49,772 bases of DNA. It comes from a virus. Below the pieces are notes generated by a model. The model was not told where the DNA came from, did no database searches, and was given only the letters and a program-made list of their open reading frames with translations. Location of the stretch: IMG/VR virus record IMGVR_UViG_3300007276_000075, positions 1 through 49,772 of that record, one strand, 5' to 3'. The stretch's first letter is position 1. Each line of letters begins with the position of its first letter. Shown here in pieces: positions 12,901-46,902 of this stretch. The position numbers and the translations under genes were made by a program.

Positions 12901-15900
12901 TAGGTCAAACCATACCGTCCAACGCAACGTATAGAGATAATGAGGACAGTATTTACACAAGTAGTGGACTGCAGCTTTCAAGACATCCAACTGAATATCT
13001 GTTTCACACGCACACAGTGGAAGAAAACGTCTACGGACAAGGTCAACCTATAAGATTCTGGGGAGGTGGTAGTACAGCCGGTGATACCACTACTAACGCT
13101 TTAGGGTTAAAGACACAGTACATAAACAACAACCCTGTTCACGCTATAAACAAGGATATTAATGGAGCAGAGGAGTTTTGGGATGGCGTACATGGTGATC
13201 ATGATTTTTTTATTGATGCTTGCACTGCTTTCTCTCTAACAGGCGGTAGATATGGTGTTTCCTCTGAAGAATATGACACTCCGGGTCACTGGATTCAAGG
13301 TAATACGTTTCCATTGACTGACAGAAATATAGGCGCTATAGATGTAGATATTAATGATCCAGCGGATGAATTTCCAAGTTCTTTCAACCAAGGTAAAGGC
13401 CATCCTAGTAGAGGTATATGGGGTCCTAACAACACCTACATGGATATCTCTTTTTCTGGTATGTCAGGAGGTATAACAGAATCAGGTGATTGGGATGATC
13501 AAAACGTTCCTCTTAGGTTACAAGATGTTCCTAGCAGCAATGTGAATCAATCTAACGCTAATGAATTTATCAGTAGATTAACAACATCTGGAACTACATT
13601 TAGGTTTAGAAATGATCCTGACGAAGTGGTGTACACAGTGCAGCAAACAAGTCACAATCCAGCTCCGTATACAGATCAAGGGGGAAATGCTAGCACAGCT
13701 ACTCACAGGCCAAGTACTACTAAAAGTACTGGAGACTGGGGTATAAGAAACTACCTTTCAAGTGGTAATAGTGACGGAAGTAAAAAGAAACACCAACATA
13801 TAGAGCAAAACTTAAGGCAGAGATGGACTATAGTTGTTAGCCCTGGTATAGGTAGTGGCCCTAGTGGTTATAACCCTATAAGAGGCACAAAAAGCCCTCA
13901 ATGGGGCGGGCCTGCTTATGGAGATGACAACTACAGAAGAGCTTTACACCACGATTACACAAATAAAGATGTCATAGACATAATAGCACCAAATATCAAT
14001 GATGTAGGTCAAGGTTCTTTTACTGAGAATCCCGCGGTTTGGGAGACTGAGCCTAAAGAAAGCGTAGACTTAGATATATACTATCAAGCTAGTGGACTAA
14101 TACCTGTTAAGCTTAACTCGTCTACAAATGAAGAATATATACCTATTGGCTCTACGTTTGAACTACAATCAACTACCACTTCCGCAACAACTACGCATAC
14201 TATAACAAGTGTTAGTGATCAAACAGTTACCTTTAGCCCAGCGTCAAGTGCCTTAGTGACTCAAGTTACTGATGGAGAATCTGTGGTGTTTGCAAAAAGA
14301 AACAACTACTCTTTCACTGCTGTTGCCAACGGAGCAATGTCAGCAGGTGACTCAACAATGGTTTTACACGGCGGTGCAAGTACTGTTAATGACTCTTACA
14401 AGTTGTTCTCTCAAACTCAGTATTTAGACTGGAGTAATTGCTGGAGTTTTGGAAACGGTGTGGAATCTGATAGAGTTAGAGACGATTTTAACGGCACTCA
14501 GATGGACAACGGGGTTAAAGCGTCAAGTGTTTTAGCTGAACAAGTGCGAGAAGAAAGAAGAAAGCACGGTTTAATATGGTCTGGTATATACAACTCAGCG
14601 TCTGGTATTAACGAAACAAACCAATTTATAGCTGGAGAGAAGATAACAAAAGATCTAAATCCTATATACGGCAGCATACAAGCGCTACTGAATAGAGACA
14701 CTAGGCTCATTATGTTCTGTGAAGACAAGGTGCTTAGAGCAGTTACAAACAAAGACGCTTTATACAATGCTGATGGTAATCCGCAGCTAGTAGCGAGCAA
14801 CACGGTTATAGGAGACGTAACACCTTATCAAGGCAACTACGGTGTATCAACTCACCCTGAATCTATAGCTGTTACACCAAGTAATGTATTTTTCTCAGAT
14901 TCATCACAAGGGCAAGTGCTTAGATTAACAACAGAAGGTATTGTATCAATATCTCAATTAGGTATGAAAGATTACTTTGCTGATCTATCTAAGTCTTATA
15001 TATGGAGATCTCTAGGCACGTATGATCAAAATAAAAAAGAGTATAATTTAACTGTTTCTAAAAAGTATGGCCCTCAGTTAACACCGCATAGTCAAGAAAC
15101 TGTTTCTTATAGCGAGATAGCTAATGGTTGGTCTAGCTTTAAGTCGTTTTTTCCTGAAAACGGGTTGTCTATTAACAATAACTATTACACGTTTGATGGT
15201 GGGCAGCTGTGGAAACATCATGATAATTTAACTAGAAATAACTTCTATGGCGTTCAGTACGCTTCTGATATAACAGTTTTATTTAATGATAAACCCGAGT
15301 CTGTAAAGAGTTTTACTACTATAAATTACGAAGGGTCAGCAGCTAAAGTGACAGCTTTTGAATTAGAAGCGGTTCAGTTTTTCAATAACGACATAACTAG
15401 CGGTAATGGTCTTGCTGGCTCTACAAACGTTGGTGACGGAGAATACTTTAACTTAGACGACGTAGCTGGTTGGTACACGGATAACATACGTACTAATATT
15501 CAATCATGCGAAAGTATTGAGTTTAAGGAAAAAGAAAACAAGTACTTTGGTAAAATAATTGGTACAACAACTGGCGTGGATAGTGGAAACCCAAACTTAG
15601 CTGGTCAACCAAGTGTCACTGAGGTTTCAGTAGCTAAAAACGCCGCGGACTCGTCAGTACAAGGTTTAGGTATAGCAAGTATAAGTCACAGTGATTCAGA
15701 CCAGGGCAACAACATATCTATAATAGTATTAAACAACACATCAACTACCTATAAAAAAGACGGTGGTAGTAGTGGAGATGCTTACGATGCTACAAGCGAC
15801 TCTAGCAACTGGAGAGTAACTTACACAACAACTCAAACACCTTACTGGTTTGGAGAAGCGGCAAAGGCAATTCCAGCCGCTCAAAACGTTGTTTTTTCTT

Positions 15901-17867
15901 TATCACCTATACTAGCTAATGGTTCATATAGCGGTTTCCCACTGTCGGCTGAAAAGTTTATTATTGGAGGCTCTCCAAGTGGTAGTCATGGAGCAGGTTG
16001 GACAGGCGGAAATATGGACACTCCAATAAGTAAAGTTACGTTTACGGATACTGGTATCGCGGGGCAACCTAACAACACTGTTACGGTAACGGTTTTACTT
16101 AACACTGGTTATACACCTAGTGCAAACATTATTGCTTATATAGATATAGATTTAGTAAGTGAAAAGGTTATGCCTAGAAACAATTGTCTAGATGTTGCTT
16201 ATGATTTTCATGCTTCAAGTATTCAAGCTCACCCGATAGTTGGTAGCGGAGTCACGGATGTGGCTGATGTAACTGAAACAGCTTTAATAGTTGGTACCTC
16301 TTCTTTACAGACTTTAAATAGACACAAGACAGTTTTAGCTGAAACAGGTGTACCTATGAAGATAGCTAAGTACACATTTACAAGAGCTGGTGCATATTAT
16401 TACGCAGGACAAAGTGATTTTCCTTCGGTTAAGTTTGAACAACTAGGTGTGTATGAGCCTTATTATAGCTATTATATACATCCAACTTACACGAGTGGCC
16501 TGTTAACAAGCTTTGATGTTAACATATACTACACGCCACCGTCTGACCCTAGCCTACTGCAAGACCCTGAAGATTTTTGTTCATTAGGTCATAAGGCGTA
16601 TATATCATATACACCTTTAGTGGCTGATATAGAAGGGTTTGGTATCACTGGGGTTGATTATAATAAGTCTGTTGCGATATTATCAGGAGAACAAGCTATA
16701 ACAGTGCTAGGTTTAGCTAACAAAAAGTACACTTTATCTGTGCAAAAGAAAACAAGCACAACAAGTTCAATTACAACCGAAACTCTTGGGCACTATAACT
16801 TTACCACTAATGAGTTTCAAACAGCCATCACTACAGATCCTGGTACTATAGGAGCTAACGGTAGGAATACACACCATGTAATACTACCTGAATTAAGTGC
16901 TACAACTAGGTATGACATTACTATAAACAACATTGTTGATGGTGTCATTGCTACAGTGGCGGATTCAGTTCCAACTTTTCCTGGAGAAGCATCTATAATC
17001 GCGTATGGCACTGAGACTTTAACGGTAACACCTTCTAGTACTTCTTCTACTAACTTTGGAACAATTCCAACGTTAGATATTATTCGTCCAATTGTGCCAC
17101 CTGGTAAAAAACCTTTATACAAGCAACCTAAATTTGTGAAAATATATGTTAATGGGAACACCGGGTCTGCGGAAGATATAAATAAGGGTTTATCTACAAG
17201 ATTAGTTTTAGACAAAGCCGATAGCAGGATAAAACCAGGTATGTTTGTTACTATGAACTTTAAAGGCAATCGTATACCAGATAAAACCAAGGTAGTATCG
17301 GTTAAACGAAACATCATAACGCTTAGTACCGCTTGCTCTATACTTTCAAGCGATTCTTTAGTAATATTCAAGTCTGACTCCTCAATAGTACCGTTTTCGT
17401 TGTCTATACCTGCAGGTTCTGGTAAAACTATTTACTTGAAAGATCCTACCACTGTAGACTTTACTTCCGTTGTAACAGGGTTAACAAGTGTTAGCACACA
17501 AGTTTCACCAGATTCCGCTGGTACAACTATGAAAATTGAAAGTAGCAGGGGTATAGTACCGGGTATGTTAATAACAGGGTCAGGTGTTACGGCTGACGCG
17601 CGAGTGGTCAGCGTGTTTGCCGGTGGAACCGCTATACAAGTAAACGTAGCTCAACCTAACATTTTATCCGGGTCAACGTTAACTTTTACACATCCTAGAG
17701 CAGCAAGTGGCGATGACGGCGACAACTCTGATGGTGTTAAAGTAGAGCATTTGCAAGCTTCTATGGATGATGGTAAACTAAAGGTTGAGGGATATCTTAA
17801 AGTTAACAGTATAAGCACTACCGCTCAACTTACTATCAATATAGACGATCTAGTAACAGTAAATTAA
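9969..17867 (+). CDS. Giant tail nozzle-like protein (tail tubular protein B-like)
   Basis: At 2632 residues this is about three times the size of T7 gp12. The N-terminus (SGAKMNKDLDERLVPTGQYR, then ALNIEV, QNILGN) is the hallmark of nozzle-type tail proteins in marine podoviruses. Central conserved-looking segments are CWSFGNGVESDRVRDDF near residue 1490 and GWSSFKSFFPENGLSINN near 1720, compatible with a propeller-type beta fold. Residues about 1000-1400 are rich in Gly, Asn, Ser and aromatics and may be surface-exposed insertions. A small module of the form G-I-x-P-G-M followed by beta strands occurs near residues 156, 2420 and 2528. The C-terminal third has Ig-like Thr/Ser/Val-rich sequence. 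It probably forms the distal tail tube and anchors fibres. No enzyme motif was seen. Confidence 0.8.
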   Translation: MAELRRVFSGAKMNKDLDERLVPTGQYRDALNIEVATSESGEVGTAQNILGNTKHNTMVASAGVYDVQVKSTCVGSIAAQDKDKVYYLVSSGDQYDSDSYVDTRKDYIMEYDTVLEKHKYVFVDIHSVKAVANDNVNFSTSVEITLGSGDTSNKTGIRTGMLLTGTFTNTSGGTITAPSGQAVLNNTTYQIQETDNVRVIAQSYPGNMRTYTLSKAIALADGETMYFTAPRVLNFSKNTIITGINILDDFLYWTDNVNEPKKINIPRSIAGTGGLVDLVNGDESSTFEGDTPYFHTRLVKDKDAYTPQSQRYETAYNSAGTLAPIYINESNITVIKKAPTQPLELEMFRSSASRVNSLTDVENSTYGIQTGQSYVTADGTLIEPGESISVSFDFEVDFRVGDILLFSQQTAVYDPENSEEDHIRAEVITSSVTNPNNLFLSGFEIRILSIQPSASGLSNWYVRRELSDPLFSFKFPRFSYRYKYQDGEYSSFAPWSEVAFLTDAYEYKPKKGHNLGMINQLRGLKLKGYHHRGYQYNNYDANIMPQDVVEIDLLYKDTSSPTVYTVKTINKEDGTPVWPDYSGPGQGVTAVERGEFEITTDMIHAVVASNQLIRPWDNVPRKALAQEITSNRLVYGNYLQNYTVVKDPILNIGVDTEKITDVGEGYAKPSVKSMRKYQVGVVFSDEHGRETPVITSKSSNVTLPKSASSTRNRLSCSLSSNSSIPSWAKYLSYYVKESTTEYYSMAMDRWYLASDGNIWISFPSADRNKVAEEDYLILKKAHGSSNPVHEKQRYKILAISNEAPDFIKTQKESLGYLLNSSQDSIGNNVEGYPIEDTNFIDINAAIFNNIFGSELLVNTPDNMSIIITGQGQQVEYDVSTISLMDGKYRIKLKSKFGAEINFATTNGLYSGRISDLAIELFSNEVTNKPEFDGRFFVKMFKDDALSKHIVSADDIDSIITNSSGVRYIGNNGYDNAGLGQTIPSNATYRDNEDSIYTSSGLQLSRHPTEYLFHTHTVEENVYGQGQPIRFWGGGSTAGDTTTNALGLKTQYINNNPVHAINKDINGAEEFWDGVHGDHDFFIDACTAFSLTGGRYGVSSEEYDTPGHWIQGNTFPLTDRNIGAIDVDINDPADEFPSSFNQGKGHPSRGIWGPNNTYMDISFSGMSGGITESGDWDDQNVPLRLQDVPSSNVNQSNANEFISRLTTSGTTFRFRNDPDEVVYTVQQTSHNPAPYTDQGGNASTATHRPSTTKSTGDWGIRNYLSSGNSDGSKKKHQHIEQNLRQRWTIVVSPGIGSGPSGYNPIRGTKSPQWGGPAYGDDNYRRALHHDYTNKDVIDIIAPNINDVGQGSFTENPAVWETEPKESVDLDIYYQASGLIPVKLNSSTNEEYIPIGSTFELQSTTTSATTTHTITSVSDQTVTFSPASSALVTQVTDGESVVFAKRNNYSFTAVANGAMSAGDSTMVLHGGASTVNDSYKLFSQTQYLDWSNCWSFGNGVESDRVRDDFNGTQMDNGVKASSVLAEQVREERRKHGLIWSGIYNSASGINETNQFIAGEKITKDLNPIYGSIQALLNRDTRLIMFCEDKVLRAVTNKDALYNADGNPQLVASNTVIGDVTPYQGNYGVSTHPESIAVTPSNVFFSDSSQGQVLRLTTEGIVSISQLGMKDYFADLSKSYIWRSLGTYDQNKKEYNLTVSKKYGPQLTPHSQETVSYSEIANGWSSFKSFFPENGLSINNNYYTFDGGQLWKHHDNLTRNNFYGVQYASDITVLFNDKPESVKSFTTINYEGSAAKVTAFELEAVQFFNNDITSGNGLAGSTNVGDGEYFNLDDVAGWYTDNIRTNIQSCESIEFKEKENKYFGKIIGTTTGVDSGNPNLAGQPSVTEVSVAKNAADSSVQGLGIASISHSDSDQGNNISIIVLNNTSTTYKKDGGSSGDAYDATSDSSNWRVTYTTTQTPYWFGEAAKAIPAAQNVVFSLSPILANGSYSGFPLSAEKFIIGGSPSGSHGAGWTGGNMDTPISKVTFTDTGIAGQPNNTVTVTVLLNTGYTPSANIIAYIDIDLVSEKVMPRNNCLDVAYDFHASSIQAHPIVGSGVTDVADVTETALIVGTSSLQTLNRHKTVLAETGVPMKIAKYTFTRAGAYYYAGQSDFPSVKFEQLGVYEPYYSYYIHPTYTSGLLTSFDVNIYYTPPSDPSLLQDPEDFCSLGHKAYISYTPLVADIEGFGITGVDYNKSVAILSGEQAITVLGLANKKYTLSVQKKTSTTSSITTETLGHYNFTTNEFQTAITTDPGTIGANGRNTHHVILPELSATTRYDITINNIVDGVIATVADSVPTFPGEASIIAYGTETLTVTPSSTSSTNFGTIPTLDIIRPIVPPGKKPLYKQPKFVKIYVNGNTGSAEDINKGLSTRLVLDKADSRIKPGMFVTMNFKGNRIPDKTKVVSVKRNIITLSTACSILSSDSLVIFKSDSSIVPFSLSIPAGSGKTIYLKDPTTVDFTSVVTGLTSVSTQVSPDSAGTTMKIESSRGIVPGMLITGSGVTADARVVSVFAGGTAIQVNVAQPNILSGSTLTFTHPRAASGDDGDNSDGVKVEHLQASMDDGKLKVEGYLKVNSISTTAQLTINIDDLVTVN

Positions 17868-18300: not shown

Positions 18301-18798
18301 ATGGCTGATAATAGTTTACAGGAAAAATCAAAAGCCGATTTAGCTAAAAGTTTTAGAACAGCTATAACTTTAGTAGAACAAAACTTTAGAGAAATTGCCG
18401 ACGGTGAAAATGTTATAGTTGGAACTAAAGAAAACCCAATTGTGCCTAATGGTGATCTGTGTTCTACTGAATCAACATTTGTTAACGGTGTGTATATAAG
18501 AACTATGACCGTTAAAAAAGGATGTGTCATTATAGGTGCTATACACAAGCATGAGCATGTAAACTTTCTTATGTCTGGCCACTTAGTGGTTGCTAGCGAA
18601 GACGGCGTGTCAGAACACGAGGCTCCTTGTACTATAATTGCTGGACCAGGTATAAAAAGAATAGCATACGCCCGTGAAGATTCCGTGTGGTGCAACGTGC
18701 ATGGAAATCCATCAAACACTAGGGATTTAAAAGAATTAGAGAAAGAAACTATATTAGCAAGTTATGAAGAATATGAAGAGTACACTAAAAATAAATAA
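18301..18798 (+). CDS. Cupin-fold protein
   Basis: A 165-residue protein with a single conserved beta-barrel (cupin) domain at about residues 60-135. Motif 1 contains the metal-binding cluster IGAIHKHEHVNFLMSGHL (H82, H84, H86). Motif 2 contains PGIKRIAYAREDSVWCNVH (H134). The N-terminal 45 residues are helical and may form an oligomerisation or docking segment; the C-terminus is acidic (ASYEEYEEYTK). Cupins bind metals and either catalyse small-molecule reactions or act as structural barrels. Its location between tail and internal virion genes suggests a virion role or a late metabolic function; I cannot decide which. The fold call is good, the role is open. Confidence 0.75.
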   Translation: MADNSLQEKSKADLAKSFRTAITLVEQNFREIADGENVIVGTKENPIVPNGDLCSTESTFVNGVYIRTMTVKKGCVIIGAIHKHEHVNFLMSGHLVVASEDGVSEHEAPCTIIAGPGIKRIAYAREDSVWCNVHGNPSNTRDLKELEKETILASYEEYEEYTKNK

Positions 18799-18804
18799 GT
18801 TGTA

Positions 18805-19614
18805 ATGGGTTGGGTAATGGCTGTAGGCGCTGGAATTAGCGCTGTAAGTGCTGGTGTTAAAGCCGTACAAGCAAACAACAGAGCTAAAGAAGCTGCTGAA
18901 GATGCTAGGGAAGCAAAGCTAGAGCTTGATAAGCAGAAAGACGCGTTTAAAGCATTAGATACTAGTAATCCATATTTAAACATGGAGAATACTATGGAAG
19001 ATCTAACTGTTAATACTCAAGCAGCTGAGTTCCAAAAACAACAAAGCATGCAAGGTCAAGCTAACGCTATGCAGAGCCTAAGGGGTTCTGCTGGTAGTTC
19101 TGGTATTGCCGCTTTAGCACAAACATTAGCTAGTCAAGGGTCTTTAGATGCTCAAAAAGCTTCAGCTGATATAGCCAAGCAAGAACAAGCAAATCAAGCC
19201 GCTGAAAGAGGTGAAGCAGGTAGACTACAAGGTTTAGAGCGTGAGGGTGAGCTTATAAGCAGACAAGCTGAACACGGCAAAATATCTGGGTTAATGGGTA
19301 TGGCCGCAGATGATCTTAATACTCAAAGACAAGCTGAGCAGTTAGCTATACAGCAAAGACAAAACGCCACTTCGGAAATGGTGGCCTCTGGCGCACAAGC
19401 CGCAATGGGTGTCGCTGGAGGAAGAGGTGCTGCTGATGCTGATTTTAATCTTAAGAACGCTGAGGCTATAAAAGCTGGAACAGAAACCGCACGTAATCGT
19501 AATTTCACAATGGATGCGCAGCAATACTCCGCCACAAGCGCTATGTTAGGTGGTGTGGGTAGTTATGAAGCTGAAATGGCAGCTCTTATGCAAAAATACG
19601 GAATAAAAGAATAA
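18805..19614 (+). CDS. Putative internal virion protein (gp14-like)
   Basis: The first 25 residues (GWVMAVGAGISAVSAGVKAV) form a small-residue, Gly/Ala-rich hydrophobic segment suited to membrane insertion. They are followed by about 220 residues of Ala/Gln/Glu-rich predicted coiled coil. This matches the T7 gp14 type of ejection protein, which leaves the capsid first and forms a channel in the outer membrane. At 269 residues it is somewhat longer than gp14. It is the first of three genes (18805, 19614, 20972) joined by TAATG stop-start overlaps, in the same order as gp14-gp15-gp16. Direct sequence similarity to T7 was not assessed. Confidence 0.65.
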   Translation: MGWVMAVGAGISAVSAGVKAVQANNRAKEAAEDAREAKLELDKQKDAFKALDTSNPYLNMENTMEDLTVNTQAAEFQKQQSMQGQANAMQSLRGSAGSSGIAALAQTLASQGSLDAQKASADIAKQEQANQAAERGEAGRLQGLEREGELISRQAEHGKISGLMGMAADDLNTQRQAEQLAIQQRQNATSEMVASGAQAAMGVAGGRGAADADFNLKNAEAIKAGTETARNRNFTMDAQQYSATSAMLGGVGSYEAEMAALMQKYGIKE

Positions 19615-20972
19615 TGGCACAATCAGGAACAAAAGCACCAGCAGGAAGAACACTGGACTACGGATTAGATGCTAGCACTCTAAATAGAGTTAGAGACGCT
19701 GGACTGGCGTCAGCTAATTTACAATCAATGAAGGGTGGTGGAAGAGTTGGGTTAGCTCAAGCGTTAGGTGAAATAGGTAAAGGTGTACAGTTAATAGGTG
19801 GAGGGTTAAAAGCAGGTAAAGAAGCGTCTAAACTATTAAACGCGAAATGGCAAAATGCAGAGTCAACAGGCGGTTGGGGTGGCGCAAAACCTGAGTTAAA
19901 AGAGCAAATGACCACTCTTGAAAAAGAAAACCAAGCTGAATATCAAGCCGCGGTTCAAGCTGGAGATAGAACAAAACAGGCTGAGATACTAGCTAGGCAA
20001 GCTCAACGTGTAGAGCAATTTGGTAAACATAATGCTCTTGGTGCTTTAGTTCTGTCAACTAGAAAAGACGTGGGATTCATAGACAACAACGAAGCCTACT
20101 CGTTGGAAGATCAGTTATTTTTAAGCTCATACGCTGATCCAACAGAGGTAATGGTTATACCAAGTGAAGGAGGCGTTGTGAAAATGGGTGTTGATTACAC
20201 GGACTTTTTTAAGCCAATATCGCCTGAGGGTACTACAAATGAAGAACTGCTTGAATCTGTAGAGGCAGCAAACATTCGTGATGCTCAACTCGAAGAGTTG
20301 CTCGCGGATCCTAATAGTGGATATACGAAGGTTGATGGTAAAATAATTAGATCACTGACAACATCAGAGATCACTGATATGCTTGGTAACGCAACTCGCC
20401 CAACTACAGAAGCTTTACAGATCAACAAGGAGTTTGATAGGATGATAGCTGATCGATTAGCTATAAACAAAGCTAATATAGGTGTTGAAGAAGAGAAGCA
20501 ACAGACATACGCTTTTAGTGACGATCAAGTTAGCGCTAAGTTTGGAGAGATGATTAATGAAGGCAACCAAAAAAAGCTTATCTACGCTAAGTTAGATGGA
20601 GTAGGTACATTTTCTAAGGAGTTTATGTTGCACCCAGATTTTAAGTCAACTACATTTGACCCAAACATTGGTATGCCGGTTCCTGATGGTGCGACTGAAA
20701 ATGGTCCCACGTTTGCGGATATTGCTGGACCTGATAAAATATTACAGGCATCTGAAATGGTAGGGTTAAGCCCAAATGATAGAGCGCTTATACTAAAAGA
20801 ACTTCAAAAACCGGGTAACGAAAACATGCTAAGAGAATACTGGGGTGAATGGGTTATGCTTAAATCCAAAGGTAAAATGGGACTTGGTGGAGTTAATACC
20901 ACTACAGATACAATGACCGCGGGTGCTGGCAGTATAAACGTAACTAACGCAACATCGAGAGCAAACGACTAA
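19614..20972 (+). CDS. Putative internal virion protein (gp15 position)
   Basis: A 452-residue, mostly alpha-helical, charged protein of unrecognised family. Residues 40-75 are Gly-rich and amphipathic (GEIGKGVQLIGGGLKAGKEA). The remainder alternates helical and loop regions, ending in a Thr/Ala/Asn-rich tail. It starts by TAATG overlap with the gp14-like gene and ends by the same overlap with the giant gene, so the three are translationally coupled. Its place corresponds to T7 gp15, a periplasmic ejection-tube protein. This is inference from gene order and coupling only. Confidence 0.55.
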   Translation: MAQSGTKAPAGRTLDYGLDASTLNRVRDAGLASANLQSMKGGGRVGLAQALGEIGKGVQLIGGGLKAGKEASKLLNAKWQNAESTGGWGGAKPELKEQMTTLEKENQAEYQAAVQAGDRTKQAEILARQAQRVEQFGKHNALGALVLSTRKDVGFIDNNEAYSLEDQLFLSSYADPTEVMVIPSEGGVVKMGVDYTDFFKPISPEGTTNEELLESVEAANIRDAQLEELLADPNSGYTKVDGKIIRSLTTSEITDMLGNATRPTTEALQINKEFDRMIADRLAINKANIGVEEEKQQTYAFSDDQVSAKFGEMINEGNQKKLIYAKLDGVGTFSKEFMLHPDFKSTTFDPNIGMPVPDGATENGPTFADIAGPDKILQASEMVGLSPNDRALILKELQKPGNENMLREYWGEWVMLKSKGKMGLGGVNTTTDTMTAGAGSINVTNATSRAND

Positions 20973-23900
20973 TGGTAGACGAAAAAACAAACCAACTACT
21001 TCGTGATTTGGTTCAAACAGCTAAGGATTTAAACTTTGACATGGATGCTACTATGTCTAAGTTTCCTGAGTTTCAAAACGTAGATAGGCAGCTTCTTGAC
21101 GATTTTGTACAGACAGCCAAGGATTTGAATTATGATATAGATTTAACTCTATCTAAGTTTCCAGAGATAACTGGAGAGAAAGGAAAGGAGGTTGAGCCGG
21201 GAAAGACTCAAGACCCAACGGTTTACAGGGGCGTACCGTATGGGTCGGATACTCAAAGGCCAATAGAACAACCTTCTTCTCAACAAGATGGAGATCCTAT
21301 AAAAGAGCAAGTTGCAGCTTCTCCAGCTATGACACCTATGTTTCCAGAAGAAGAAAAGAAGGAGCCAGGTTTTTTAGACGGGGATAAAGATAAAAGCAAG
21401 TTCTATGAAAGTCAAGCCGCAATGAAACTTGACGCTATGACTCCAGCTCAGCAAGAGGAGGAGTTTGGTAAAGGTGGTTACATGAGAACTAGAGAGTACA
21501 AATTAGGTGTACTTAAAGGTAAGTTAGCAAGAGGAGAGTCAATGGATGGTGATACAGTAATTATACCACCTGAGTTTCAGTCTAAAAAACAAAAAGATGA
21601 AATTAAGTTATCTAATAAATCTTATGAAGATGAGATAGATTTAGGTAACATGAAAACCGTGGTTGACAAAAAGTTTGGTGATGTTAAGAAAGTATTTGAT
21701 GAATACGCTGGTTTTCCAGGATTAAATGTTATAAACAACTCTGTAGGGTTAGATGAAAAGGTTAAATTTATTTTACCTGATGGTGAGGTTGTCGATGTAG
21801 ATTTATATCCAACTGGACCTGGTGATGATCTTTTTAATACTAAAGCAGGTGTAGACGCTAAGTTGGTGGAGGTGAAAAAACTTGAGCGTATAAAAGAGTG
21901 GTACAGTGACCCGAAAAATAAAAAGAAAACTAACCTAGGTTTATTCAGAGTTCTTGGAGATCGATCAGATGACTGGCTTGGTGATAACTTTCCAACAAAC
22001 CTAACTCCTATAAACGATGAGTTATCAAGATTAAATTACAGAATTAAAATAGATCAAAGCGTTGAAGGCGAAGTGGGAGCTGGGGGCAATAAGTATAGAT
22101 TAGTGGATGTTGTTACTAACCGAAGTATTGCGGGTGGTTCAGCTGGAGATATTCAACAGCACTTATTCAATAACCTGTCTACGTCTCAACTAAACCAGTT
22201 AAAAGATAACAACACTGAACTAACAAAAGAAGTTATAGAGCAATATAGACAGCAAAAGTCAGATCGCTACGACTATCTTGTTGGTAGTCCAAGTTCTAGT
22301 ATATACACTTTAAAAACAGAAGATAGTTTTCCTGATAAAGTTAATATAGCTTTAGATGGGTTAGATATTTCAACTAGAGACAGACAGATTATCAAAGCAT
22401 ATTTAAACAACGCTGTCACTAACACAGGTGATCTTCTTCAACAAGCAGGTGCGTCGCGGAATAAGTATAAAGAAAAAAACAAAGCTTACGCTGAAATGTA
22501 TGATGAGCTTGTAAGTCTAACTAGCGCTAATGCTTTTCCTGGAAGCTTAGATATAACTAGAGCGGGTGACGAGCCTTCACAGTCTTTTGATCTTGATAAC
22601 CCTGAAAAAGTGTTGAGTGAGCTAAAGTCTATTCTAACGTTACGTAAAGGTAGCGACAGCGAAGGATTATCGTTGTACAATAATATACTAAGTGAAGAGG
22701 TTGTTAATTCTCAACACTTAAGCAACTCTAATGATGTGGCTAATACCTGGTTGTCTTTGCTTAGCACGTCTAGCGAAAGAGGTGGCGGAAGTGTTTCAGA
22801 TGAAAAGCTTAACAGTGCTGGCGTATCTGACTATAGACCAGAGATGCTAAGCGCATTAATAGACGAAGCTAAAAGGGATCAGAATTATATGAATAAACTC
22901 GGTGGCATGACTGACACCTATTTAAAAATAGATGGAAGCTATGACGAGTTGTACTCTCAATACAAAAAGAGAGGAGAGGAGATAAACAAAGGTAGTAAAG
23001 CCGATATAGAGGTGCTGCTAAAAGACTTTAGAGACGATGGATTAGGGTATGAAAATGTTGATGGTAAACTAGTTATAATTGGTACTGATAAAAAAGCTGT
23101 TAACATAGCTCAAGGTAGATGGAATGAGCTCATGCATAACCAAGCTGAAGTAAACTCAGCATGGAATACCGGTTTATCTTTTCTTAATGCCGAAAGCAAT
23201 GAGTTTGCTGGTGATGTGTTTTCTATGGGTGGTGTAGTTGATAGAGAGTATAACTACGGCACATTACTAGCTAAAGACTTTTGGGGCGGAGCTAGTAGTT
23301 TTGTAGAGGGTATACCAGCTTTCTTTGGATCAGGCGACGCTTTACGCGCTATGGAAAGTGGGCAGAGAGGAGAGGAGGCTTATGAGATGATGTATGATTA
23401 TCAAACTGCGTGGGCCGAGGGAATGACAGGGCGTTATGTCGGTAGAGTCGGCGCTCAGCAGAGTGTTAACTTAGCCGTAGCTTTAGGCACACAATTTATA
23501 CCTGGAGTGGGTGCGGCTATGAACGTGGTTAGAGCAGCCACAGCTCCAACTTTATTTGGATTATCTGCTGGAGGACAGCAAAGATCAGCTGTCAACCAAC
23601 AAGTTGATACTGGTAAAAAAGCTAAGCTAGCTTTAAAATCATTAGAAAAAGATTATAAAATAGGTGCTATAAGTCAATCTATGTATCTCGATAACAGGGT
23701 TAGACTTGAAACCAGCTTAGCTCTAGGTGAATTAAATTTTGCACAACGTAATGGATCTGTTCTTGCTGCAGGTATAATCGAAGGTGGTATTACATATGCA
23801 GTAGGTACCGTGCCTAATGCTAGAGCTGCTATGAAAAACTTATCAGGCATAGTAGATAGAAGTGTTCATGCTTCGGCTAGAACGCGATGGGGAGCAGCTA

Positions 23901-26900
23901 GAAACTTTTTAGGACAATCGAGTAAGCAAGTAGGTGGAGAGGTTTTAGAGGAGGAAGCCATATATTTTTCTAATGAGTTGCAAGCTGGAGTTATGACAGG
24001 TAGAGACATGGACTTTACCCACTGGGATGATGTTTTAATAGCATCTTTAATAGTCGCGGGTCCTATGAACACTACAACTACCGCTTACGGTACGGTGATG
24101 CAGCAAGTGGCGAACGAACAGTTTCGTGAACAAGTTGTGCCTCAAATAGAAAAGGTAGGTGAAATTCATAATGCAATTAAAGAAGCAGCTTTAAAAAGTA
24201 GCCCTGAAGGTGAGGCTGAAGTTAAAGTGCTTCGACAAGGTATGACTGAGGCTTTAAAGCAAATGGGCTTGTCTAACTCCGCTATGGAAGTTAACGCTAT
24301 ACTGTCAGGAACAGCCGGTATCGAAACTCTTTTAGATCAAAGTATGGCAGAAAACGCTATACATCAAAAAGCCGGTATTAAACCTCAAGACACCCCTCGA
24401 GCTAAAAAAATGAAGCTCAAGAAATATAGAGCAACGTTATCTGGTAGAGCAGCCACAGCTCATGATGCTACTTTAAAAACTATAGAAGACACTAGAGCGA
24501 GAGTATACGCGGAAACAGAAAGCAAGTTTGACAATGTTGCTGAAGGAAAGGGTGGTATTATCGAAAGCGCGTATGGGCAAGCTGGACTAGATGTAGCGGC
24601 GGATATGGTTAATCCTGAAAGTCCTAACTTTAATCCTAAGTTCAATAGGATGGATAACAAACAGAAAGTTATAGCTGTACATGAGAAAATTAAAGCTCAA
24701 TACAACGATCACTTGGTAGCCGAAGCCAAAGCGGACGCTAATACTGTTAAAAACATGGAGTTGGCTGTGTACGGAAGAGAAGGTGGCTCAACAACTTTGG
24801 CAGACGGAAAAACAAAACGAACAAGAAGAAAGCGTAAAGCTGAAAACGAGTATTTTCAGTTAGCAGCGAATTGGGGCACGTCTAGATCAACACACGCATT
24901 ATCTATAGCTAGCAAAGGTAGAGTTAACGCTAGAAACATACTGCAGGAAGAAGTTGTTGAAGGCATGAATGAAAACTCTATAGAGGAGTTTGCTGACAAC
25001 GAAGCGATGGCGCAAGATGTGCTAAAGAACTGGAAAAAGAAATATGGGTATGTCAGCGAAGTCAAAGCTCAAGAAGTTGCTAAAAAAATAAGAGACGGCA
25101 AGATAGTAGCTCAGGTAGTTGTAGACGCTGAAACTAATAAAGCTAAATATATAACACTCAATAAAGCCGATGCTCTTAACGCTCTTATGCAGGGTGATTT
25201 GCTTCAAGGCACGGCGTATGCCCACGAAGTAGGTCACGTTTTAGATGCTATAGCTTTAACCGACGCTGAAATTGAGTTAATGGCTATAGGACTTGAAGAG
25301 TCCTTAAATGGAGAGCAAAGTTTACAACTTGTTAATGCTCAAGCGATACGACGTATGACAAACGTTTCAGATGGAGATTCTAAACTTCAACTGGAAAACA
25401 ACAGTAGACCTTGGAATCCTAATACTAATAAAGTAGACTGGCGAAACTCAAAGCAGCTTGCTAAAGAAGAGTATATCAGAGCAGTTGGAGATATACTGGG
25501 TGATGGATATCACGCTCACGAATTAAAGCAGGCGCGTAAGATTGGAAAGCAAGGAATAAAAAATCTATTTAGAGAAAAGACAGGTAAAAGAAACTTTAAG
25601 TTTGACTCCAAAGGAGCAGCTTTAAATTACTTGGTTGGATACCTTGATGCTTTTAATAAAGGTGAAATATCTCAGCAAACACGTAGAAAGATAGCTGCTA
25701 AGAAAATGATGTCAGACGAGCAGTTAGAAAGAGAGACTGTTGGTAGAAAACAAGAATTAACACCTGAGGAGGTTAAAAACTCAGAGAGAGCTATAAAAAA
25801 GAGTAACAAAGAGGCGTCTGAAAGAGTTCAGAATGTATACGACGAGTTTGGAATGGATGGTATTCAAGAAATTATAGATGAGTTTGAAGTTATAGTGAAT
25901 CCTGGTAACGGTAACCCCAAAGGAAGGTTTGGTTTAGTGGAGAAATATAGATCTCGATTTGAAATAGATGAACTACCTTTTTCTTTAGGTAGAACAATGC
26001 AAGAACGAAGGAACGCGATTGCACAAGCTATATACCTTGATAAGCGTGGTATATATGGTATGGTTGAGAAGTACAATTCAGACGGGCAAGTTAGAACAGA
26101 TGACCAAGGAAACAAGGTTCCTCTAGCTGGATATATAAATAAGTATATAGAGAAGCGAGCTGATGAAATAGTTAACGACTTACTACAAGAAGAGGCAGTA
26201 ACTAGAATAGATGAAACCCACAGTAATATAGAGATTGAAGATGACTCTGGCACGGTCGAAATGGAGAGAAGGAGCAAAGGTGTTAAGTTATACGAAAGAT
26301 TTGGAGAAGATGGTTTAGGTATACATAGTAGTATTTTTATTGATGTATTAAACGGAGATATAAATGTTGATGGTAAAAACTATAAAACCCTTGGTGGTAA
26401 AAGGTTTTACCAAGTAATGGAAATGATGGGTATTAATCCCGTTAATAAAGCCGGTAAACCAAAAACTGGTAACTTAGATGCCACTGATGTAACTAACGCA
26501 CAAAGATGGATACAGAAAAACATCCAATCAGTACGCGGCGCGGTAATACCAATGCACTCTACTATTAAAATGGTTAAAAACCCTAACACAGGCAAGCTTG
26601 AAGCTAGACCTGACAAGGCTGTTGGTATACCGCAGGTTTTATTAGATTCAGATTTGTTCACTAAGCACACTAGAAAAGATAATCTTACTGGTTACTCATT
26701 TAACGATAATTTAACTGACGCAGAAATAACAAGGGTTTTTGGTATAACAGAAAGAGGTACGCCAAACATTAAACCTAAAGATGATAGAAACGTAGGTCAA
26801 CGAATAAGAGCCTTGGTTAAGCTTGTAGACATGGCTATGACTAATCAAGCGGCTAGAGCAGCTATGGATCAAAGAGGAGATCCTATCTCTGAGGTTTTAA

Positions 26901-29900
26901 GCGTTGCAGACGGTAGAAACTTAAACTTATTTTCTGAGCGAGCAGCTACAGAAAGCTTGCATAGCTACTTAGTAGACACGCCGGTGGATCAAGTTCAAGA
27001 TCAAATGGTTGAGGTTATGAAAATAGCTTTTGTACATGGATATCATTCTCCAGATTCTGACCGAAGAGCTGAGTTTGAAAATAGACTTGACAAAGCGGGT
27101 ATCCCACAAGACGTGCTAGCTTATTTAGATTCTAGGGACTTTGGTAGATACTTTACGGATGAAAACACTGGATTTAACGCACCTATAAAAAAAGCCCTAC
27201 TGAGTGGTAAGTGGAAAGATAAGCATGCTAGAAAAGTGCTTTTGGATCTCGTGAATAACCCTTACCAGTATACGGTTGATGGTGTTAAATATCAAAACAA
27301 AAAAGCTTTAAAAGATCTTGAAAATTCATCAATAGCGTTAATGCAAGAATTTCCACCTCAATTTGTTAGAAAACTTGGTAGGTCTTTCTTTGTTATGGGT
27401 AGCTCAAGAGGCTTATCAGCCGCTAATGCTCCTAGATTTATAGCTGCGTATGAAGCTAAAATCAAAGAACCTGATATGATAGGTCCTATGATGTTTGATA
27501 TAAACGCTATTAGTGCTATTAACGCTGGTAAACTGTTATCTTTTAAGATACAGAAAATACAAGCAGAAGATTACTCTGATCTATCTAAAGAAGAGGGAGC
27601 AAAAAGAAAGCGTGATAAAGTAAACCGGTTGTACGGTAAAGATATTGATGCCGCTAATGAAAACAACATCAAGGCTTTAAAGTACATGATTGAGACGATT
27701 GCTGAGTTTGGTAAAACAAGACCAGATCTTCAGGGAGGACTTCTTAGGATGCTACAAGGCGCAACTAACAATGTTAATAGCTTTAGATCGTACACAAGTA
27801 TTAGCTTAATACAGTACTCAAATAAGCCTCAAACTGTATGGAAGGGGATTAACAAGAAAACAGGTAAAACAGTTTACTTTGCTAAAAATCCTACTAAAGT
27901 TCAAAAAGAGAACCATGATATCGCTATAAACGACAATCACCCAGAATATAAAGCAGCTTTAAAATACGCTAAAGTAAAGGCTAGAGAAAAAAGTAAAAAG
28001 AAAGGGTGGAATAGTACCATGGAAAATGAAGTTCAAGCTCAGCTAGCGGCTAGGTTAAGAATTAAAGGAGAGCATATTACCCCTTCCGCTAACATGATGC
28101 AGCTTTTAGCTACTAACATAGCAGACGTTTGGTACAACAACGGTTCTATAACTATGGCTACAGAAAACGCTATGAGCGGATTTTCTCAATCTTTAGGCAC
28201 TGAGATATATAGTAGACTTCAAGACGATGCGTCTGGTTCAACAAGTCCAGCTGATATGTACCGTATGGTAGCAATACAAGGTAATCCAGATATAGACGTG
28301 GATAGCTTTAAAACATCTACAGGTGATTTGCAATATTCTGAGTTTGTAAGAGCTGAATTAGCTAGCAAAGCTCGTATTCAAGAATCTTTAAATAGATTAG
28401 ATGCTATAAGAAAAGGTGACTCTAAATCATTGAACAATGTGACTGAAAACTTAGGGGCTATAACAAAGGGAGCTACTGATGTTGAAGTGCAAAATACTAT
28501 TAATGACGCACGACGAGCAACAGCTAAAAATAGCGAGCGAGGAGAAACAAAAGGTATGAGCGCTTGGGACTTTGATGACACTCTTGCTATGACGTCTTCT
28601 GAAGTTATAACAACATCTCCAGATGGTGTTCCCGGTAAGTTAACAGCTGAAGAGTTTGCTACAGACGGAGCTAGACTTAAAGCTGAAGGTTATGTTTTTG
28701 ACTTTTCTGAATTTAATAAAGTTGTAGGTGGTAAACCAGGTCCTTTATTTGACAAGGCTTTAGAAAGATCAAAAAAGTTTGGAACAGAGGATACGTACAT
28801 ACTTACAGCTAGATCTCCTGAAGCTGCTCCAGCTATAAAAGAATTTTTAGATGCAGTAGGACTGGATATACCTCTTAAGAATATAACAGGTTTAGGTAAA
28901 TCAGAAGGTTCAGCTAAAGCTAGGTGGATACTAAATAAGTTTGCGGAAGGATACAATGACATCTATTTTGCCGACGATGCGATTCAAAACGTAGATGCTG
29001 TTCAGCAAGTGTATGACGAGTTTGACATTAAAGGTAAAGTTGAGCAAGCTAAAGTTAAGTTTAGCGAAAGAGCTAACGCTACGATGGAGCAAGTGCTAAG
29101 CGAGGGTCAACTTGATTTAGATGAAGATTTTAACATTGTGTTAGAGGAAACAAAGGGTGTAGACAGAAGGAAAGAGTTTTCTGCTGTAAAAGCTCAGCAA
29201 AGAGGTAAAAACAAAGGTAAGTTTAAGTTCTTTATACCTCCATCAGCAGAAGATTTTGCTGGGCTTCTTTATTCGTTTATGGGTAAAGGTGAAATAGGTA
29301 ACAAGCACCACGCTTTCTTTAAAGAAAATCTTTTTGATCCGTTTTCTAGAGGCATTAGGCGTTACAACTCTGTTATGCAGGAAACTACCAGAGAGATTAG
29401 AGAAGCTAGAAAAGCTATACCTGGTATTAACGGAAAGCTAAAGAAAAAAATCGCAGGCACTGATTTTACTAATGAGCATGCGGTAAGGGTATACAATTGG
29501 TCTAAAGCTGGTATAGATATACCTGGTTTAAGCAGGACAGACCAAAAGATTTTAGTAGATGCGGTAGCAGCGGATGTAGAGTTAGAAGCTTTTTCTGAAT
29601 CTATTTTAAACACATCGAACAAGCTAGGTGTAGACTTTGTTATTGATTCATCTTGGTTGATTGGTAATATATCATCTGATATTAACGAACAGATGCGAGA
29701 CTCAAGATCTGTAGCCCTTAGTGATTTTTTAAGCAAGAGTGATGTTATATTTTCTGAAAAAAATCTTAATAAAATTCAAGCGATATACGGTAATAACTTT
29801 AGAGAAGCTTTAGAAGACTCGTTATACCGCATGGAGCACGGTGGAAATAGATCTAGGAATTCAGGTAGAATAGTAAATGCTTTGAACCAATGGGTAACAA

Positions 29901-31453
29901 GCGGTGCGGTTGGTACCACTATGTTCTTTAACACTCGTTCATCCGTACTGCAGCTAACATCGGCTGTTAACTTTGTTAACTGGAGCGACAATAATCCACT
30001 TGAAGCAGGTAAGGCCATTGTTAATCAAAAGCAATACTGGGGTGATGTAGCTATGATATTCAACTCTCCGTTTATGAAAGCTCGTAGAGGCGGTCTTCAA
30101 ACAGACGTAAACGCTAATGAATTACTGGAAGACCTTAAAGGTTCTAAAAATCCGTTCAAATCCGCAACGGCTTATCTTTTGAAACTTGGTTTCACACCTA
30201 CTAAAATAGCGGATAGCTTTGCTATTGCAACAGGTGGCGCTACGTTTTACAGAAACAGAATAAAAACATATCTAAAAGATGGTATGAGCCAAACTGAAGC
30301 CGAGTCAAAAGCGTTTGAGGATATGATGGAGTTAGCAGAAGAAACACAACAGTCATCAAGAGAGGATAGAGTTTCTCAACAACAAGCCAGCGGTGTTGGT
30401 AAGTTTATTTTAGCGTTTCAGAATACACCTATGCAGATGAATAGGTTAATGAAGAAGGCTTCGCTAGATTTAATTAACGGTAGAGGTGATGCTAAGGCTA
30501 ATATATCAAGAATTATATACTACAGCACTGTACAAAGCGCCATATTCTATGGTCTTCAGGGAGCTTTATTTGCTTCATTATTTGGTGATGACGAAGAAGA
30601 TAAAATAACAGACGAGAAACAACAAAGGTTGATAAACGGTATGATGGATAGTTTGCTTAGAGGTTCAGGGGTTGGAGGAGCTGTAGTAGCAACATTAAAA
30701 AACACTATACTTAGATTCATGAAGGAAGACAAAAAGTCTACCGATGATGAGTTTATGACAGAAGCTGATCATGCTTACACAATTATAGAGGCGTTAAATA
30801 TATCACCACCAATAGGTATTAAAGCAAGAAAATTGTATGGCGCAGCTCAAACGTGGGAGTTTAACAGAGATGTTATAAGCCATATGTCTAAAACAAATAT
30901 CAACAACCCTGTGTACGACGCTACCTTTGCTGCTGTCGAGTCAACAACAAACATACCTTTAAGTAGGTTGTATAGCAAGATGGAAAACATTAAAGCCGCT
31001 ATGGATTCAGATAACGAAACATGGAAGAGAGTGGCTATGGCTTTAGGTTGGAATAAATGGAATTTTGGTATTAAAAATCAAGACGTCATTACCGCGAGAG
31101 GTGAAGTTAAAGAGATTAAATCTGAAGCAGCTGAGGTTAGAAGAGAAGAGAGAAGGCTTGAAAGAGAGGAAGAAAGAGCGGCTGAAAATGCTGTTATAGA
31201 ACAAGGTTTTATAGAAGATCAAGCTCAAGAAAGAGCTGATGGTAAAGAAGACGTTACCTGCACCGCTGTTAACAACTCAGGTGTTAGATGTAAAGTAAAA
31301 GCAGTTGACGGTGGCACGCGTTGCACTATACACCAAGAAGTAGAACAACGCGCGGATGGTGAGAAGAAGCAGTGTTCTCACGTTAAAAGTGACGGTAAAA
31401 GATGTAAAATAAAAACAACAAATCAATCTGGAAAATGCTATTATCACGACTAA
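20972..31453 (+). CDS. Giant polyvalent internal virion protein with zincin, HAD and zinc-finger-like domains
   Basis: A 3493-residue protein in the T7 gp16 position, probably ejected into the host. Domains in order: a 32-residue tandem repeat (about 9-68); helical regions; Gly/Ala-rich hydrophobic stretches near 830-865 and 925-955 that may enter membranes; a zincin-type metallopeptidase with HEVGH (H1418, E1419, H1422) and a possible third ligand in KEEYIRAVGD near 1500; long helical regions; a HAD-like phosphatase (D2533-F-D2535-D-T2537, T2612 in LTAR, D2668/D2669); a conserved-looking FIPPSAEDF segment near 2755; a hydrophobic stretch near 3180; and two C-x9-C-x10-C-x2-H motifs at the end (C3430 to H3454, C3468 to H3492). 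Large mosaic proteins delivered with phage or plasmid DNA are known as polyvalent proteins. No RNA polymerase motif was seen despite the N4-like length. Substrates are unknown. Confidence 0.8.
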   Translation: MVDEKTNQLLRDLVQTAKDLNFDMDATMSKFPEFQNVDRQLLDDFVQTAKDLNYDIDLTLSKFPEITGEKGKEVEPGKTQDPTVYRGVPYGSDTQRPIEQPSSQQDGDPIKEQVAASPAMTPMFPEEEKKEPGFLDGDKDKSKFYESQAAMKLDAMTPAQQEEEFGKGGYMRTREYKLGVLKGKLARGESMDGDTVIIPPEFQSKKQKDEIKLSNKSYEDEIDLGNMKTVVDKKFGDVKKVFDEYAGFPGLNVINNSVGLDEKVKFILPDGEVVDVDLYPTGPGDDLFNTKAGVDAKLVEVKKLERIKEWYSDPKNKKKTNLGLFRVLGDRSDDWLGDNFPTNLTPINDELSRLNYRIKIDQSVEGEVGAGGNKYRLVDVVTNRSIAGGSAGDIQQHLFNNLSTSQLNQLKDNNTELTKEVIEQYRQQKSDRYDYLVGSPSSSIYTLKTEDSFPDKVNIALDGLDISTRDRQIIKAYLNNAVTNTGDLLQQAGASRNKYKEKNKAYAEMYDELVSLTSANAFPGSLDITRAGDEPSQSFDLDNPEKVLSELKSILTLRKGSDSEGLSLYNNILSEEVVNSQHLSNSNDVANTWLSLLSTSSERGGGSVSDEKLNSAGVSDYRPEMLSALIDEAKRDQNYMNKLGGMTDTYLKIDGSYDELYSQYKKRGEEINKGSKADIEVLLKDFRDDGLGYENVDGKLVIIGTDKKAVNIAQGRWNELMHNQAEVNSAWNTGLSFLNAESNEFAGDVFSMGGVVDREYNYGTLLAKDFWGGASSFVEGIPAFFGSGDALRAMESGQRGEEAYEMMYDYQTAWAEGMTGRYVGRVGAQQSVNLAVALGTQFIPGVGAAMNVVRAATAPTLFGLSAGGQQRSAVNQQVDTGKKAKLALKSLEKDYKIGAISQSMYLDNRVRLETSLALGELNFAQRNGSVLAAGIIEGGITYAVGTVPNARAAMKNLSGIVDRSVHASARTRWGAARNFLGQSSKQVGGEVLEEEAIYFSNELQAGVMTGRDMDFTHWDDVLIASLIVAGPMNTTTTAYGTVMQQVANEQFREQVVPQIEKVGEIHNAIKEAALKSSPEGEAEVKVLRQGMTEALKQMGLSNSAMEVNAILSGTAGIETLLDQSMAENAIHQKAGIKPQDTPRAKKMKLKKYRATLSGRAATAHDATLKTIEDTRARVYAETESKFDNVAEGKGGIIESAYGQAGLDVAADMVNPESPNFNPKFNRMDNKQKVIAVHEKIKAQYNDHLVAEAKADANTVKNMELAVYGREGGSTTLADGKTKRTRRKRKAENEYFQLAANWGTSRSTHALSIASKGRVNARNILQEEVVEGMNENSIEEFADNEAMAQDVLKNWKKKYGYVSEVKAQEVAKKIRDGKIVAQVVVDAETNKAKYITLNKADALNALMQGDLLQGTAYAHEVGHVLDAIALTDAEIELMAIGLEESLNGEQSLQLVNAQAIRRMTNVSDGDSKLQLENNSRPWNPNTNKVDWRNSKQLAKEEYIRAVGDILGDGYHAHELKQARKIGKQGIKNLFREKTGKRNFKFDSKGAALNYLVGYLDAFNKGEISQQTRRKIAAKKMMSDEQLERETVGRKQELTPEEVKNSERAIKKSNKEASERVQNVYDEFGMDGIQEIIDEFEVIVNPGNGNPKGRFGLVEKYRSRFEIDELPFSLGRTMQERRNAIAQAIYLDKRGIYGMVEKYNSDGQVRTDDQGNKVPLAGYINKYIEKRADEIVNDLLQEEAVTRIDETHSNIEIEDDSGTVEMERRSKGVKLYERFGEDGLGIHSSIFIDVLNGDINVDGKNYKTLGGKRFYQVMEMMGINPVNKAGKPKTGNLDATDVTNAQRWIQKNIQSVRGAVIPMHSTIKMVKNPNTGKLEARPDKAVGIPQVLLDSDLFTKHTRKDNLTGYSFNDNLTDAEITRVFGITERGTPNIKPKDDRNVGQRIRALVKLVDMAMTNQAARAAMDQRGDPISEVLSVADGRNLNLFSERAATESLHSYLVDTPVDQVQDQMVEVMKIAFVHGYHSPDSDRRAEFENRLDKAGIPQDVLAYLDSRDFGRYFTDENTGFNAPIKKALLSGKWKDKHARKVLLDLVNNPYQYTVDGVKYQNKKALKDLENSSIALMQEFPPQFVRKLGRSFFVMGSSRGLSAANAPRFIAAYEAKIKEPDMIGPMMFDINAISAINAGKLLSFKIQKIQAEDYSDLSKEEGAKRKRDKVNRLYGKDIDAANENNIKALKYMIETIAEFGKTRPDLQGGLLRMLQGATNNVNSFRSYTSISLIQYSNKPQTVWKGINKKTGKTVYFAKNPTKVQKENHDIAINDNHPEYKAALKYAKVKAREKSKKKGWNSTMENEVQAQLAARLRIKGEHITPSANMMQLLATNIADVWYNNGSITMATENAMSGFSQSLGTEIYSRLQDDASGSTSPADMYRMVAIQGNPDIDVDSFKTSTGDLQYSEFVRAELASKARIQESLNRLDAIRKGDSKSLNNVTENLGAITKGATDVEVQNTINDARRATAKNSERGETKGMSAWDFDDTLAMTSSEVITTSPDGVPGKLTAEEFATDGARLKAEGYVFDFSEFNKVVGGKPGPLFDKALERSKKFGTEDTYILTARSPEAAPAIKEFLDAVGLDIPLKNITGLGKSEGSAKARWILNKFAEGYNDIYFADDAIQNVDAVQQVYDEFDIKGKVEQAKVKFSERANATMEQVLSEGQLDLDEDFNIVLEETKGVDRRKEFSAVKAQQRGKNKGKFKFFIPPSAEDFAGLLYSFMGKGEIGNKHHAFFKENLFDPFSRGIRRYNSVMQETTREIREARKAIPGINGKLKKKIAGTDFTNEHAVRVYNWSKAGIDIPGLSRTDQKILVDAVAADVELEAFSESILNTSNKLGVDFVIDSSWLIGNISSDINEQMRDSRSVALSDFLSKSDVIFSEKNLNKIQAIYGNNFREALEDSLYRMEHGGNRSRNSGRIVNALNQWVTSGAVGTTMFFNTRSSVLQLTSAVNFVNWSDNNPLEAGKAIVNQKQYWGDVAMIFNSPFMKARRGGLQTDVNANELLEDLKGSKNPFKSATAYLLKLGFTPTKIADSFAIATGGATFYRNRIKTYLKDGMSQTEAESKAFEDMMELAEETQQSSREDRVSQQQASGVGKFILAFQNTPMQMNRLMKKASLDLINGRGDAKANISRIIYYSTVQSAIFYGLQGALFASLFGDDEEDKITDEKQQRLINGMMDSLLRGSGVGGAVVATLKNTILRFMKEDKKSTDDEFMTEADHAYTIIEALNISPPIGIKARKLYGAAQTWEFNRDVISHMSKTNINNPVYDATFAAVESTTNIPLSRLYSKMENIKAAMDSDNETWKRVAMALGWNKWNFGIKNQDVITARGEVKEIKSEAAEVRREERRLEREEERAAENAVIEQGFIEDQAQERADGKEDVTCTAVNNSGVRCKVKAVDGGTRCTIHQEVEQRADGEKKQCSHVKSDGKRCKIKTTNQSGKCYYHD
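20996..21175 (+). repeat. 96-base (32-residue) tandem repeat at start of giant gene
   Basis: Two adjacent copies encode LL(R/D)D(L/F)VQTAKDLN(F/Y)D followed by a SKFPE motif. They differ at the DNA level but match closely in protein, so this is a duplicated helical module rather than a recent DNA repeat. Confidence 0.8.
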
Positions 31454-46898: not shown

Positions 46899-46902
46899 AG
46901 TT

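Follow-up and report, generated by a model that had tools for sequence, protein, structure and literature searches.

To our knowledge, the details of how a short-tailed phage takes over its host cell in the first seconds of infection have been worked out for only a handful of phages. The locus examined here brings that question to a single gene: what might a protein of 3,493 amino acids, encoded last in the structural block of a marine phage, do at that moment? The window, which is the whole stretch of DNA analysed, comprises the entire virus record IMGVR_UViG_3300007276_000075 in IMG/VR (49,772 bases). A preliminary description had reported a 3,493-residue open reading frame at 20972-31453 as an ejection-type protein of several activities, and these coordinates proved exact. 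The single polypeptide was found to join a zincin-type site, a HAD phosphatase domain and a sigma-70 region-2-like segment. The features of the three-gene cassette and of this giant protein (P0001) are as follows.

18805..19614, plus strand: 269-aa protein, positional equivalent of T7 gp14 and N4 gp52
19614..20972, plus strand: 452-aa protein, positional equivalent of T7 gp15 and N4 gp51
20972..31453, plus strand: giant protein gene (P0001), ATG start, 3,493 aa, last gene of the structural block
20972..24991, plus strand: variable N-terminal region (aa 1-1340), from the identity profile
25079..25501, plus strand: zincin-like metallopeptidase region (aa ~1370-1510), from alignment and profile match
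25223-25237, plus strand: HEVGH (aa 1418-1422, with E1419), from a motif scan
25469-25471, plus strand: candidate third ligand E1500, a Glu 82 residues past the first His
25868..26206, plus strand: sigma-70 region-2-like segment (aa ~1633-1745) after the zincin, from profiles and a weak predicted fold
26219..28441, plus strand: middle region (aa ~1750-2490), parts of whose predicted model are confidently folded
28547..29074, plus strand: HAD phosphatase domain (aa 2526-2701), from motifs and predicted fold; its motifs, from alignment, are I, D2533-F-D-D-T2537; II, T2612; III, K2649; and IV, D2668/D2669
28616..28639, plus strand: HAD cap site (aa ~2549-2556), empty in the window, from spacing comparison with relatives
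29129..31081, plus strand: conserved all-helical C-terminal module (aa 2720-3370), containing F-x-N-T-P-M-Q
31259..31447, plus strand: twin C3H zinc motifs (aa 3430-3454 and 3468-3492), DUF5763-like

The cassette and its counterparts in other phages

The terminase and portal proteins of the window indicate kinship with Bacteroidota podoviruses. Their identities are 65% and 51%, respectively, to those of MW202828 and 46% and 39% to those of the Flavobacterium Elemovirus, and further kin by these two proteins are Maribacter phage Panino, Cellulophaga Callevirus (Pervagoviridae) and the Pachyviridae.

The giant gene overlaps its upstream neighbour by one base, the final base of the 452-aa gene being the first base of the giant. 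In nearly every relative examined, a gene for ~200-300 amino acids and then a gene for ~280-850 amino acids lie upstream of the giant gene, abutting or overlapping; the typical sizes are ~250 and ~450 aa. The same gene order is seen for gp14, gp15 and gp16 of T7, and for gp52, gp51 and gp50 of N4 (Schitoviridae), where a giant of ~3,500 amino acids is likewise encoded last. A coupled gp14-15-16 order had been proposed for this locus. The three-gene order and the overlap hold. Sequence homology to T7 gp14, gp15 and gp16 was not supported: hhalign comparisons of the cassette proteins with these and with N4 gp51 and gp52 revealed no homology. Below threshold, the Pfam family T7_gp14 matched the first cassette gene of the window (E = 0.011), and it weakly matched 3 of the 42 members of that gene's alignment (best E = 0.0043). 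Ahead of the cassette, a 165-aa protein (18301-18798, plus strand) matches the short tail fibre family phrog_12032 (E = 1.7e-30).

The family of the first cassette gene has a conserved core. When a profile of this family, built without the target sequences, was searched against 788 open reading frames, Elemovirus gp20 ranked first (E = 4e-4) and phi40:1 gp099 second (E = 0.008). By this profile evidence, the 269-aa protein appears to be a remote relative of both. The structural block of Cellulophaga phage phi40:1 closes with gp099, gp100 and gp101, whose records bear the remark 'annotation based on experimental MS/MS proteomics analysis'. The positional equivalents of all three cassette members are, by MS/MS, virion proteins in phi40:1. 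The third of these, gp101, has no clear sequence likeness to the giant and carries neither HExxH nor HAD motifs.

Giants encoded last in a syntenic position also occur in two of the named kin, namely Elemovirus gp18 (a 'structural protein' of 3,694 aa) and MW202828 UOF82488. Both carry HExxH but, unlike the giant of the window, lack the HAD motif and the twin C3H motifs. Elemovirus gp18 has an N-terminal block as in some relatives, a weak block that is common to them (blastp of elemoF against L008, E = 6e-10). In UOF82488 (L026:741-12320) HExxH occurs twice, at aa 1615 and at aa 2500.

Conserved sites in the giant protein

Scanning the whole giant with Pfam and PHROG yielded nothing beyond chance, and tblastn with the giant and the first cassette gene gave no match among 50,697 phage records, a collection in which no close cultured relative was found. 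Relatives came from IMG/VR: two scans returned 26 and 304 encoding stretches, of which 25 and 80 loci were kept, and the family amounts to 300+ encoding stretches from uncultured phages. The second scan used HAD-region patterns and extraction demanded the HAD motif, so that the occurrence of this motif in all 96 extracted giants is partly a matter of selection. Because relatives were partly picked in this way, the HExxH count is the independent one: among the 96 relatives, all but one of those long enough to contain it carry the motif, nearly always once. Across the 96 giants HExxH comes first, ~790-1,480 residues ahead of the HAD motif, and the stretch N-terminal to it varies from ~450 to 1,850 residues. 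Either motif alone could be due to chance, because 5,000 composition shuffles yielded each in 3-4% of cases (HExxH in 2.7%, HAD motif I in 4%). Conservation among the relatives shows that both are real. Identity to the window is ~10-15% over most of the first 2,500 amino acids, and ~40-70% over most of the HAD and C-terminal part.

The HEVGH residues, already read as those of a zincin in the preliminary description, lie in a conserved site. In 20 aligned sequences the H, E and H are invariant and the downstream E1500 is nearly so. A profile of the region aligned with the HExxH core of ten N4-type virion RNA polymerases (E = 9e-4, compared with E = 0.8 for an unrelated control profile), a likeness to the N4 metallopeptidase. 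Among the 788 open reading frames of six named phages its top match was Elemovirus gp18 (E = 1.6e-8). A profile of the C-terminal module picked Tenacibaculum phage Gundel_74 ('structural protein', 2,482 aa; E = 4.6e-9), which has the homologous helical module and HExxH but is without the HAD motif. With either profile, hmmsearch gave nothing under default filters and gave the Elemovirus gp18 and Gundel_74 matches with filters off.

An AlphaFold2 model of aa 1340-2530 (1,191 residues, pLDDT 74.8) places HExxH and E1500 in predicted helices 76-89 and 156-171. The zincin region was modelled poorly, with pLDDT below 50 in part. The zincin fold stays a candidate because the strands before the HExxH helix are poor in this model, and zincins were absent among the fold matches of a model in which these strands are of low confidence. 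No convincing Pfam peptidase match was found for the region, and profiles made from the zincin and middle-region alignments gave nothing useful against the PDB. Together, the sequence comparisons support a zincin-type metallopeptidase site with predicted activity.

The full HAD motif set that had been claimed was confirmed, the catalytic residues of motifs I-IV, and with them all five of D-F-D-D-T in motif I, being invariant in 52 aligned sequences. Structure prediction at this site had been suggested as a check, and AlphaFold2 returned a HAD fold. In a model of the HAD and C-terminal part (pLDDT 77.6), the HAD domain occupies model residues 27-202 and the remainder is all-helical. The best structural matches found by VIA-align were bacterial Pnkp1 (4xru_D, Z 12.3, 132 aligned residues, 3.0 Å) and then T4 Pnkp (2ia5_D, Z 11.3, 118 aligned residues, 2.4 Å). 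The HAD fold is firm, with the top rows nearly all HAD, but the substrate class is only a hint because many other HAD enzymes follow the Pnkp entries at Z 9-11. A profile made from the HAD and C-terminal alignment gave nothing useful against the PDB.

Comparison of HAD domains across the family indicates that the cap is an insertion slot, a feature overlooked in the preliminary description. The spacing between motifs I and II is 79-80 residues in ~70 relatives (80 in the window), exactly 279 in 13, and 102, 147, 168 or 216 in a few. The 279-spacing form carries a P-loop kinase (Pfam Zeta_toxin, E = 3.9e-14; AAA_33, E = 1.6e-11; PHROG polynucleotide kinase, E = 2.2e-10), as in L012:8139-8780, which is a zeta/PNK-type kinase. 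GxxGSGK occurs 36 residues past motif I in 17 relatives, and the kinase motifs within the slot are intact. A different insert, L057:10073-10498, resembles Pfam ART-PolyVal (E = 9.5e-4, below the Pfam cut-off), and those at L002:7725-8012 and L004:9135-9359 have no family name. Because the inserts differ in this way, one HAD cap site appears to accept different domains. T4 Pnkp has its kinase ahead of the HAD domain, whereas in relatives of the giant the kinase, where present, is inserted inside the HAD domain, separating motif I from motif II. The giant of the window (spacing 80) contains no GxxGSGK and lacks the P-loop kinase joined to the HAD domain that marks a polynucleotide kinase/phosphatase.

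The kinase insert used as a profile found nothing below 0.001 in the PDB, and Foldseek found no significant PDB match to the 1,191-residue model. Among viral folds, this model matched A0A218MLT5, a 'UDP-N-acetylglucosamine kinase' of an uncultured virus (E = 1.6e-7), which is probably a relative bearing the kinase insert.

The twin C3H motifs at the extreme C-terminus had been reported correctly, and none of the 5,000 shuffles contains such a motif. They weakly resemble Pfam DUF5763 (E = 2.8e-5, below the cut-off) and are found in only part of the family. The membrane-like stretches described earlier did not withstand analysis. No 19-residue window of the giant reaches 1.5 on the Kyte-Doolittle scale, and the five windows above 1.2 are fewer than in shuffles (7.8). 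Clear transmembrane segments were rejected on these grounds. Ala/Gly-rich, mildly hydrophobic stretches lie at aa 832-853, 929-947 and 3187-3205.

A segment resembling sigma-70 region 2

Between the zincin and the middle region lies a segment that was overlooked in the preliminary description, and for which a sequence profile and a predicted fold indicate the same residues. Six PDB entries of primary sigma factors were matched, through their domain 2, by model residues 272-406 (aa 1611-1745), at only Z 3.8-4.4, a score too low to count by itself. A first profile of the segment, searched against all PDB sequences, had 8b3z as its best natural match (E = 0.025). A second profile matched 8b3z (E = 7e-4), RpoH (E = 1.8e-3), sigma-K (E = 0.016) and several RpoS entries, and sigma factors made up 10 of its 17 PDB matches, all across region 2. 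Alignment by hhalign with 30 sigma region-2 sequences gave scores of 19.6 and 26.4, whereas shuffled and reversed controls reached at most 14.7. Pfam Sigma70_r2 weakly matched 2 of 16 relatives, with E = 0.0014 at best. In the window copy ~14 residues are inserted, and Q stands where sigma70 has D403; this position is D, N or E in 22 of 30 relatives, which were chosen by motif.

These results make a remotely sigma-2-like domain at aa ~1633-1745 probable but unproven. We also considered that short helices resemble one another here by chance and that the segment binds something else, for example channel proteins. The low Z scores would fit such an explanation, as would the designed helical repeat proteins that scored equally high in the same PDB searches, if over a different part of the profile. 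So would the search in the reverse direction, in which a sigma profile found nothing significant in the giants (best E = 0.39; reversed control, 1.5). Chance does not readily explain why profile and predicted fold coincide, why most of the PDB matches are sigma factors aligned over region 2, or why shuffled controls score far lower. Moreover, 6 of the 16 back-search matches begin 200-300 residues past HExxH (P ~1e-5 by a binomial estimate that ignores relatedness). On balance, we give chance resemblance somewhat less than an even chance. A literature search for virion-packaged sigma factors returned no such report, the matches listed concerning reovirus sigma proteins.

Proposed role at infection and competing explanations

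Polyvalent proteins, known from phages and conjugative elements, combine mixtures of domains in one chain, with zincins as a hub (Iyer et al. 2017, PMC5512222). The giant resembles them in its long chain, its unrelated catalytic domains, its zincin hub and its predicted delivery with DNA, and at least two unrelated catalytic domains are found in it, the zincin-type site and the HAD domain, with activities predicted from sequence and model. The zeta-type kinases and ARTs that accompany polyvalent proteins (PMC5512222) are of the same types as those in relatives of the giant. The words 'sigma' and 'phosphatase' are absent from the main text of that paper, and thus the HAD phosphatase and the sigma-like segment apparently lie outside its domain list; exchangeable inserts within a HAD cap likewise seem not to feature there. 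The core idea of the preliminary description survives.

We hypothesize that the giant is such a polyvalent ejection protein, standing in place of T7 gp16 or N4 gp50, and we judge this reading, drawn from sequence and analogy, to be reasonably probable. Three internal virion proteins would exit the head along with the DNA, the giant being the largest. The 269-aa and 452-aa proteins would form an outer-membrane and periplasmic channel. N4 gp52, gp51 and gp50 are described as ejection proteins that make up an outer-membrane complex, a periplasmic tunnel and the ejected polymerase (PMC12633501). The giant would thread through the tail as a string of loosely connected domains, anchored by its N-terminal part and by its helical C-terminal part. 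Once inside the cell, the zincin may cut the chain of the giant, or a host protein, and release domains. The HAD phosphatase, whose predicted fold comes nearest to polynucleotide 3'-phosphatases, may repair or trim nucleic-acid ends, such as those of tRNA cut by host defence, and in relatives a kinase or other enzyme would travel inside the HAD cap.

The sigma-like segment may keep the host RNA polymerase bound to the DNA as it enters. T7 gp16 is described as recruiting the host enzyme (PMC12633501), as proposed here for the giant. It has 1,318 aa and no detected sequence homology to the giant. N4 handles the same task with a built-in polymerase. A more specific version of our proposal is put forward tentatively: a sigma-factor-like domain is ejected with the DNA, next to a HAD scaffold whose cap is a socket for a kinase, an ADP-ribosyltransferase or nothing. 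The ejected domain would therefore capture host RNA polymerase where the DNA enters, ahead of the synthesis of any phage gene product. If so, the family may offer a third solution beside those of T7 and N4, in which a polymerase-recruiting domain replaces the polymerase. To judge by the insertion slot, the chassis for delivery is constant and its cargo can be swapped, a natural case of protein delivery via a phage tail; the slot also allows the idea that zincins free such cargo to be tested.

The zincin might instead serve only to mature the giant within the capsid, before or during packaging, in which case the giant is a polyprotein precursor and separate fragments are ejected. The authors of the polyvalent-protein study proposed this for N4-type proteins (PMC5512222), and a single HExxH ahead of the HAD module in nearly all relatives is consistent with it. 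However, the sequence holds nothing that separates cutting before ejection from cutting after it, and the N4 virion RNA polymerase, which has a related zincin, reportedly enters the host by ejection as a protein of 3,500 residues (PMC12633501). We consider maturation alone rather unlikely. The divergence of the N-terminal 2,500 residues, down to 10-15% identity, and the naming of annotated relatives as just 'structural protein' could also be reconciled with a passive structural or channel protein whose enzyme folds are relics. That explanation is quite improbable given that the HExxH and HAD catalytic residues are kept amid diverging surroundings and that the slot kinases of relatives retain intact motifs.

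A strongly diverged polymerase domain in the middle region, which would make the giant an N4-like virion RNA polymerase, is suggested by the similar length (3,493 versus 3,500 aa), cassette order and zincin. In both N4 gp50 and the giant, the related HExxH domain is followed by a large helical part. Profile likeness to gp50 was not found outside the zincin, however, and fold matches include no polymerase, a model of this size being a poor test. Unlike gp50, the giant has a HAD domain, a sigma-like segment and twin C3H motifs, and it is without a detected RNA polymerase domain. A hidden polymerase therefore seems most improbable to us, and the polyvalent ejection protein remains our preferred reading.

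Other genes of the window were also inspected. A 2,632-aa protein (9969-17867, plus strand) matches the crAss muzzle C-terminal domain PF25729 at aa 1756-1801 (E = 3.1e-6) and, over ~300 aa, is alignable with structural proteins from several phages, among them phi40:1 and Elemovirus. A 713-aa protein (33740-35881, plus strand) ends in Por_Secre_tail (PF18962, aa 649-711, E = 2.8e-10), the domain that serves as the C-terminal sorting signal for type IX secretion in Bacteroidota. The 528-aa frame at 36552-38138 (minus strand), antisense to a 1,359-aa gene (36262-40341, plus strand) where the window is richest in G+C, is probably not a gene. A minus-strand block at 44436-49744 encodes a B12-type ribonucleotide reductase, DUF1064, MazG and a DnaB/KaiC-type ATPase.
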